DNA of 64,000 bases. It comes from Ensifer sp. Root278 (GTDB lineage Bacteria > Pseudomonadota > Alphaproteobacteria > Rhizobiales > Rhizobiaceae). The stretch is taken from contig NZ_LMJJ01000044.1 of assembly GCF_001429285.1 (NCBI RefSeq), positions 212,842 to 276,841 of the forward strand, given 5' to 3'. The position numbers and the translations under genes were made by a program. The notes under the pieces are model-generated. The model worked only from the letters and a program-made list of their open reading frames with translations. It did not search any database and was not told the DNA's origin. Positions 1 through 12,261 of the stretch are shown piece after piece. Each line of letters starts with the position of its first letter. The first letter of the stretch is position 1.

Positions 1-219
1 ATAGGCCCGCCCGTAGAAGCCCCGCTCGCGCCAGCCGGAAAGATTGAGCGCCGTCTCCCGCAGCGTCTTGGAGGGGATGGTGCCCGTGTGCACCGAAACG
101 CCGCCGACGCGTTTTCCCTGTTCGATGACGAGGACCTTCTTGCCGAGCTTGGCGGCCTGGATGGCGCCGCGGCGGCCGGCGGGCCCGCTTCCGACGACGA
201 TGAGATCGAACTGAGTCAT
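1..219 (-). CDS. sthA: Soluble pyridine nucleotide transhydrogenase, N-terminal part (cut by window edge)
   Basis: Only the first 73 codons are present; the gene runs leftward out of the window. The translation begins MTQFDLIVVGSGPAG, an FAD-binding Rossmann motif (GxGxxG) at residues 9-14, and continues with the GTIPSKTLRE region typical of SthA. In this enzyme the classical CxxxxC redox pair of related disulfide reductases is replaced, and the sequence here reads GVSVHTGTIPSKT, without cysteines. The family transfers hydride between NADPH and NAD+ in the cytosol. An in-frame ATG 12 codons upstream (position 255) is an alternative start; 219 gives the usual family N-terminus. Confidence 0.9.
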   Translation of the reverse strand, partial: MTQFDLIVVGSGPAGRRGAIQAAKLGKKVLVIEQGKRVGGVSVHTGTIPSKTLRETALNLSGWRERGFYGRAY

Positions 220-11057: not shown

Positions 11058-11132
11058 TGGCACGCCCAACGGGACTCGAACCCGTGTTGCCGCCGTGAGA
11101 GGGCGGCGTCCTAACCGCTAGACGATGGGCGC
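11058..11132 (-). tRNA. tRNA-Glu (anticodon CUC)
   Basis: The minus-strand sequence folds as a cloverleaf with a 7-bp acceptor stem closed by G1-U72, discriminator G73 and an encoded CCA. The anticodon loop CCTCTCA between a GCCGC/CGGCGG-like stem gives CTC. It is the outermost member of the Glu tRNA cluster and has no internal duplication. Confidence 0.95.
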
Positions 11133-11339
11133 CCATGCTTCTGACTGATGAACTTGCAACGCAGTCTTGCGGCCGTGAGCAATTCAGCTGCGGATATTAT
11201 GCTTTTTCAGCGCAAACGACGACATAAATCCAACTGCATCGCTCCGGCGACAAGGTCGCGAGATTCGATCGAAAGTGAGCCGCAAGCGCAAGTTTGCTGC
11301 GTAGCTATATTGGAGATGTGGGGGAGAAATTCAACACAG

Positions 11340-11414
11340 TGGCACGCCCTAGGGGAGTCGAACCCCTCTTCCCAGAATGAAAATCTGGTGTCCTAACCGA
11401 TAGACGAAGGGCGC
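11340..11414 (-). tRNA. tRNA-Glu (anticodon UUC), copy A
   Basis: A full 75-base cloverleaf including encoded CCA, with acceptor GCGCCCT/AGGGCGT, anticodon loop TTTTCAT (anticodon TTC) in a CCAGA/TCTGG stem, T-loop TTCGACT and G73. Directly upstream the -10-like TTATAG (plus-strand reading, 11433-11438) is kept, but the -35 position reads GGTTCG instead of CTTGCG because the tandem duplication of the tRNA interrupts it. It is therefore probably transcribed from the intact promoter beyond copy B. Confidence 0.93.
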
Positions 11415-11456
11415 ACTCGCTGTGTGGGCGCCTTATAGCCAGCGACTCTGGATACC

Positions 11457-11511
11457 GAACCCCTCTTCCCAGAATGAAAATCTGGTGTCCTAACCGATAG
11501 ACGAAGGGCGC
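11457..11511 (-). pseudogene. Truncated tRNA-Glu(UUC), copy B
   Basis: It is identical to the 5' 55 bases of copy A (acceptor 5' strand, D arm, anticodon arm, variable region, first half of the T arm) and then stops at the TTC of the T loop. The 3' half of the T arm, the acceptor 3' strand and CCA are missing. It belongs to an exact 97-bp tandem duplication (11360-11456 and 11457-11553). It cannot form a mature tRNA. Confidence 0.9.
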
Positions 11512-11529
11512 ACTCGCTGTGTGGGCGCC

Positions 11530-11558
11530 TTATAGCCAGCGACTCTGGATACCGCAAG
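11530..11558 (-). promoter_or_regulatory. Promoter for tRNA-Glu copies B and A
   Basis: On the minus strand CTTGCG (11558-11553), a 17-base spacer and CTATAA (11535-11530) match the rhizobial housekeeping consensus CTTGAC-N17-CTATAT. The same element precedes the other two Glu(UUC) blocks. Confidence 0.75.
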
Positions 11559-11710
11559 CGTCAATCTCAGGTTTTTTGTGCTTTTCCTGTTAAAAAACGG
11601 CGAGAAAAATTCGGCGCCTGAAGGCCGGAATCGGAGACGTGTCCGAGGCAGGAAATCACCGTTTCAGACGAGGAAAATATCGATTTTCATGGGGGAGGAG
11701 ATCAACACAG

Positions 11711-11785
11711 TGGCACGCCCTAGGGGAGTCGAACCCCTCTTCCCAGAATGAAAATCTGGTGTCCTAACCGATAGACGAAGGGCGC
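11711..11785 (-). tRNA. tRNA-Glu (anticodon UUC), copy C
   Basis: Full-length copy with the same sequence as copy A, including G73 and encoded CCA. Only the 14-base leader CCCACACAGCGAGT separates it from truncated copy D, with no promoter between them. It must depend on the promoter at 11873-11901 and on processing from a D-C precursor, if the assembly is right. Confidence 0.93.
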
Positions 11786-11799
11786 ACTCGCTGTGTGGG

Positions 11800-11854
11800 G
11801 AACCCCTCTTCCCAGAATGAAAATCTGGTGTCCTAACCGATAGACGAAGGGCGC
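11800..11854 (-). pseudogene. Truncated tRNA-Glu(UUC), copy D
   Basis: The same 55-base 5' portion as copy B, again ending at TTC of the T loop, but followed at once by the leader of copy C. The duplicated unit here is 69 bp (11731-11799 repeated from 11800). Confidence 0.9.
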
Positions 11855-11872
11855 ACTCGCTGTGTGGGCGCC

Positions 11873-11901
11873 TTATAGCCAGCGACTCTGGATACCGCAA
11901 G
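11873..11901 (-). promoter_or_regulatory. Promoter for tRNA-Glu copies D and C
   Basis: CTTGCG-N17-CTATAA on the minus strand, identical to the element at 11530-11558. Confidence 0.75.
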
Positions 11902-12054
11902 CGCCAATCTCAGGATTTTTGTGCTTTTCCTGTTCAAAACAACGAGAAAAATCCGCGGACTAAATGACCGGATTGGAAGACGTCGGCGACGGGAAAGATC
12001 GCTGTGTCAGGCGGGAAAATCAGTGATTTATGTGGGGGAGGAAGCTCAACACAG

Positions 12055-12129
12055 TGGCACGCCCTAGGGGAGTCGAACCCCTCTTCCCAGAATGAAAATC
12101 TGGTGTCCTAACCGATAGACGAAGGGCGC
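12055..12129 (-). tRNA. tRNA-Glu (anticodon UUC), copy E
   Basis: Full-length copy identical to copies A and C, with G73 and CCA. It lies 10 bases downstream of copy F, without an intervening promoter. Confidence 0.93.
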
Positions 12130-12139
12130 ACTCGCTGTG

Positions 12140-12214
12140 TGGGACGCCCTAGGGGAGTCGAACCCCTCTTCCCAGAATGAAAATCTGGTGTCCTAACCGA
12201 TAGACGAAGGGCGC
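12140..12214 (-). tRNA. tRNA-Glu (anticodon UUC), copy F, with altered discriminator base
   Basis: The body is identical to the other UUC copies, but the 3' end reads T72-C73-C74-C75-A76 instead of T72-G73-C74-C75-A76. The CCA here comes from the leader of the next copy (CCCACACAG), a result of an 85-bp tandem duplication. G73 is the normal discriminator of tRNA-Glu and contributes to charging, so C73 could lower its function. Confidence 0.8.
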
Positions 12215-12232
12215 ACTCGCTGTGTGGGCGCC

Positions 12233-12261
12233 TTATAGCCAGAGGATTTGAGAACCGCAAG
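12233..12261 (-). promoter_or_regulatory. Promoter for tRNA-Glu copies F and E
   Basis: CTTGCG at 12261-12256 (minus), 17 bases, CTATAA at 12238-12233. The spacer differs from the other two blocks, showing that the hexamers are conserved while the spacer drifts. Confidence 0.75.

Follow-up and report, generated by a model that had tools for sequence, protein, structure and literature searches.

Exact tandem extras in a tRNA-Glu(UUC) cluster of Ensifer sp. Root278 are very probably assembly artefacts

Introduction

Overlaps of k-1 bases and errors at repeats have been described for de Bruijn graph assemblies, including overlaps that were left unmerged between contigs in scaffolds (PMC5368935). 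Kelley and Salzberg reported in 2010 that duplicated overlapping contigs can appear as false segmental duplications (PMC2864568), and duplication errors taken for extra gene copies have been described as false gene gains (PMC9516828). Real tandem duplications of bacterial tRNA genes are documented as well, as events of 45-290 kb (PMC7661048). Our literature search on such a defect at bacterial tRNA genes yielded general papers on false duplication, and we make no claim on whether a case is already in print. Here we analyzed a stretch of 64,000 nucleotides (the window; contig C44, 212842-276841) of the draft genome of Ensifer sp. Root278, which comprises 44 contigs and 7,095,460 bases. In this window a cluster of tRNA-Glu(UUC) genes carries three extra exact tandem copies.

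Results

In our assessment the three extras are, with very high confidence, assembly artefacts that hide an ordinary cluster of one tRNA-Glu(CUC) and three tRNA-Glu(UUC) genes. On the minus strand, ARAGORN identified a complete tRNA-Glu(UUC) gene in each of three blocks (11340-11414, 11711-11785 and 12055-12129) and a second complete one in block 3 (12140-12214). An exact scan, with which Tandem Repeats Finder agreed, revealed one tandem pair per block, with a period of 97 bp and 2 extra bases of homology in block 1 (11359-11554), and with periods of 69 bp in block 2 (11731-11868) and 85 bp in block 3 (12059-12228), both with 0 extra bases. In the extras of blocks 1 and 2 both the 3' acceptor strand and the end of the T arm are missing, and the Rfam tRNA model scored these extras as sub-threshold fragments of 19 bits each (C44:224310-224343 and 224653-224686); the extra of block 3 completes a whole tRNA gene. 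A preliminary description of this DNA had reported the same three periods, junction homologies of 0-2 bases, two extras truncated at the T loop and one of full length, all of which our analysis reproduced. It had also stated that the breakpoints differ, which holds only in part: the second copies of blocks 1 and 2 begin at a common edge, GAACCCC, and the first copies of blocks 2 and 3 finish at another common edge, TGTGTGGG.

To place these copies in the context of the whole assembly, we sampled 2,234,402 letters in 120 stretches (31%). The sample takes in every contig start and is therefore not a random one. It contains 59 contig ends, three of which are N, while 56 are readable. At 29 of the 56 readable ends exactly 98 bases, counted from the first base, are shared with another place, and at three further ends a shared stretch of 98 bases starts 1, 9 or 30 bases inside the contig end. 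Stretches of other lengths are shared at seven ends (three of them 99 bases), and for the remaining 17 no partner place was found in the 31% sample. Contig ends sharing exactly 98 bases are characteristic of de Bruijn graphs built with k = 99, and the assembly thus shows a contig-end overlap of fixed length, k-1.

The three blocks have a repeat in common, termed R, whose numbering starts at 11331, 11702 and 12046 and which measures 112 bp across all three blocks and 133 bp across blocks 1 and 2. Since R is longer than 98 bases, a graph with k = 99 must break at it, and the doubled stretches lie inside this repeat. With the extras left out, the branch nodes predicted for k = 99 are R[1..98], R[15..112] and R[36..133]. 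The left pieces of block 2 (11702..11799) and block 3 (12046..12143) stop exactly at base 98 of R, which is the end of the node R[1..98]. The right piece of block 3 begins at base 14 with the extra 85-bp copy (12144..12228), and R continues to base 112 at 12242; block 3 is therefore R[1..98] followed by R[14..112], which yields the 85-bp period. Both other right pieces begin at base 30, with the extra 69-bp copy in block 2 (11800..11868) and the extra 97-bp copy in block 1 (11457..11553), and in both the tRNA is truncated at the T loop. In block 1 the left piece (11331..11456) runs from base 1 to about base 126, with a junction ambiguity of 2 bases. The two starts at base 30 were compared at 11456-11561 and 11799-11904 of the window.

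The edge at base 98 also bears on the idea that the truncated extras are purposely made, functional tRNA-derived fragments. Read on the minus strand, the 69- and 85-bp units begin with CCCACAC, a few bases after a -10-like TATAAG (a promoter reading made by eye), so that the start of two units lies close to where transcription would be expected to begin, and two units end in the T loop. However, this edge falls on base 98 of R, the k = 99 boundary, and none of the relatives checked carries such fragments, which leaves this explanation extremely improbable. An origin of the TGTGTGGG edge at a transcription start just downstream of TATAAG was accordingly rejected, because the edge coincides with base 98 of R.

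The T-loop edge at base 30, in turn, concerns a second alternative, namely that the extras were left by integrative elements at a tRNA attachment site, with partial tRNA copies resembling attL and attR. Partial tRNA genes are a common sign of integrated elements (PMC9897764). In the cluster, however, the copies directly abut, with 0 bases between them and no insert. Attachment repeats usually retain the 3' part of the tRNA, whereas the truncated copies retain the 5' part with the leader. We regard remains of such elements as hardly credible here. Breakage or integration at the T loop was rejected as well, since the copies touch without an insert and two right pieces have their start at base 30 in common, which would be expected from a common graph edge.

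Doubled stretches also occur elsewhere in the assembly. At ten places of the sample a stretch is printed twice around a single N, with lengths of 98 (two places), 99 (five), 124, 127 and 204 bases. These joins lie on other contigs, at L172:1059-1257, L184:8009-8207, L216:6315-6563, L262:237-435, L270:7481-7679, L272:1541-1739, L277:1007-1203, L288:1913-2518 (two joins) and L290:278-532, and genes located there will appear duplicated or broken. A short region (L184:6013-8280; C40:166013-168280) contains many single N positions and is probably a collapsed repeat with ambiguous bases.

The 2,234,402 sampled letters contain seven exact tandem duplications without an N, with a period of 20-300, three of which are those of the tRNA-Glu cluster. 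The others measure 30 bp (C44:1-60, L156:1-60), 71 bp (C7:411-552, L260), 90 bp (C28:15487-15666, L280) and again 90 bp (C38:814-993, L288). In the C44 and C28 duplications the second copy starts where a 98-base contig-end overlap starts (C44:31 and C28:15577), in the C7 duplication it opens a 131-base match with C15, and for the C38 duplication no partner was found in the sample. None was detected in 911,533 letters from 118 loci of other genomes, all of which surround tRNA-Glu genes, or in 400,000 letters of the relative G006. By these counts the tandem extras are beyond chance. Doubled stretches around an N were likewise absent from the 0.91 Mb of other genomes; these hold only 2 short N runs compared to 73 in the sample, and therefore the control tests the kind without N and says little on the kind with N. 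The defect without N is thus found again in this assembly and is absent from the scanned loci of other genomes.

The genome itself provides an internal control in its other identical tRNA pairs. Neither the Leu(GAG) pair on C44, with a shared repeat of 98 bp, nor the Asp(GUC) pair on C34 (77 bp), nor the Lys(CUU) pair on C40 (opposite strands, 83 bp) carries an extra copy; shared repeats of these lengths do not suffice to break a graph with k = 99. Therefore, a repeated tRNA gene alone is not sufficient, and only R, which exceeds 98 bases, is affected among these tRNA repeats.

The preliminary description had proposed a comparison with the closest relatives. Among the loci compared, the best DNA matches to the window came from G006, of the same genus, at 91-92% in the two longest pieces, and from Ensifer sesbaniae, at 89-90%, which points to Sinorhizobium/Ensifer as the genus. 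Of the 16 genomes of the genus that were searched, counting that of the window, 15 matched the locus. All 13 loci of other genomes scanned with ARAGORN contain three UUC genes and no extras, and in the alignment with G006, G014 and Ensifer sesbaniae the relatives show gaps of exactly 97, 69 and 85 bp; the extras are thus not shared with these relatives. After removal of 97 and 69 bp the UUC genes of the window are spaced by 274 and 275 bp, compared to 274 and 274 bp in G006 and 275 and 275 bp in E. sesbaniae. Among 175 loci read, spacings of 69, 85 and 97 bp were confined to the nine that stem from the genome of the window, and in those of other genomes no UUC copies lie closer than 146 bp. 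Spacings of about 150 bp in Rhizobium loci represent a tRNA-Glu(CUC) beside a tRNA-Glu(UUC) in the three loci checked. A search of a plasmid collection returned other tRNA-Glu genes only and was uninformative on the extras.

These comparisons bear on the possibility that the extras are real, recent and independent tandem duplications at a strain-specific, unstable tRNA-Glu locus, caused by slippage or by replication-fork or illegitimate recombination. The copies are indeed exact and present in the deposited sequence, and duplication of bacterial tRNA genes is documented, but at a scale of 45-290 kb (PMC7661048). Three of three blocks would have been affected, and in two of them an edge falls exactly on base 98 of R, the length of the contig-end overlap, whereas the UUC spacing falls below 146 bp in no locus read from another genome and the other identical tRNA pairs of this genome are undisturbed. 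Hence the unstable locus, which the preliminary description had considered as one option, found no support, and we judge real duplications to be very unlikely. If all three were real, the locus would repeatedly gain exact short tandem tRNA-Glu(UUC) copies, as though a precursor, processed or copied in part, were put back into the gene, and two copies would have one edge close to the expected start of transcription and the other in the T loop. Such a tRNA locus would be remarkable; we give this scenario, too, very little credence.

The underlying cluster of three UUC genes and one CUC gene is conserved and ordinary. The tRNA-Glu(CUC) gene of the window is present as an ordinary single copy on the minus strand (11058-11132, ARAGORN), and ARAGORN located a CUC gene in 10 of the 13 stretches analyzed from other genomes. 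The order of tRNA-Glu(CUC) and three tRNA-Glu(UUC), followed downstream by Pro(UGG) and Arg(UCU), is common to the window (11058-12214) and G006 (L203:7038-7940). In the Rhizobium loci L037 and L101 the Glu, Pro and Arg genes are also near one another, in a changed arrangement.

Discussion

The extra copies in the tRNA-Glu cluster are best explained by the way in which the assembly was joined. The preliminary description had offered contigs joined at the common tRNA sequence without merging of the overlap as its other option, which it rated as no less likely than the first, and this option is strongly supported by the 98-base contig-end overlaps, the doubled overlaps elsewhere and the edges on 98-base boundaries of R. 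We infer that the three UUC blocks are unmerged joins and that a software step lies behind them. An assembly of short reads on a de Bruijn graph with k = 99 and overlaps of 98 bases would have been unable to traverse R with its 112-133 bp and would have been split into pieces, with both ends running into R. During ordering of the pieces, each left piece that ends in R may have been placed straight before its right piece starting in R, and the stretch common to both, left unmerged, would then have been printed twice.

How closely the single units follow this model differs. The 85-bp unit follows nearly directly from k = 99 and the 69-bp unit does so on one side, while the 97-bp unit fits only if an unseen branch existed at base 127 of R. 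Such a branch would explain the starts at base 30; R[30..127] would span 98 bases. In block 1 we judge one of the two 97-bp copies to be false.

Several observations weigh against an origin of the extras in assembly. Only two of the six edges match a predicted node exactly (base 98 in both cases). The right piece of block 3 begins one base off the prediction (R14 instead of R15), those of blocks 1 and 2 begin six bases off (R30 instead of R36), and the left piece of block 1 stops at about R126, at no predicted node; three of the six edges (R30 twice and about R126) are thus outside the simple model, in addition to the small offset at R14. Besides, the tRNA joins carry no N, unlike the N-joined doubled stretches, and the 71-bp duplication on C7 and the 90-bp duplication on C38 could not be tied to a 98-base overlap in the sample. 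Furthermore, a 99-bp repeat on C34 (138196-138294 and 140673-140771) exceeds 98 bases and has no doubled copy, so that the rule of length is not without exception.

Reading the extras as assembly artefacts corrects a false tRNA count, as the deposited sequence shows two false fragments and a fourth UUC gene in a cluster of three. It also provides a simple test for the defect: the fixed length of the contig-end overlap is determined, and doubled stretches are then sought in repeats that exceed it. The same caution should apply to at least 14 further doubled places in the sampled third of the assembly, ten around an N and four without.

Comparable cases have been described elsewhere, and the locus differs from each of them in some respect. 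With regard to real tandem duplication of bacterial tRNA genes, the likeness lies in extra tRNA gene copies in tandem; the events treated in PMC7661048 span 45-290 kb and are under selection, whereas the units found here measure 69-97 bp. The false gene gains described in PMC9516828 resemble the present case in that duplication errors are taken for extra gene copies, but they concern vertebrate assemblies with mostly haplotype or read-error causes. Likewise, the false segmental duplications in the study by Kelley and Salzberg (PMC2864568) arise from duplicated overlapping contigs, there due to haplotype differences in diploid animal genomes and here at a repeat that exceeds k in a haploid bacterium. 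The account in PMC5368935 of unmerged k-1 overlaps between de Bruijn contigs in scaffolds corresponds to the 98-base end overlaps and the doubling around a single N in this genome; in contrast, the joins in the tRNA-Glu cluster are made without an N.
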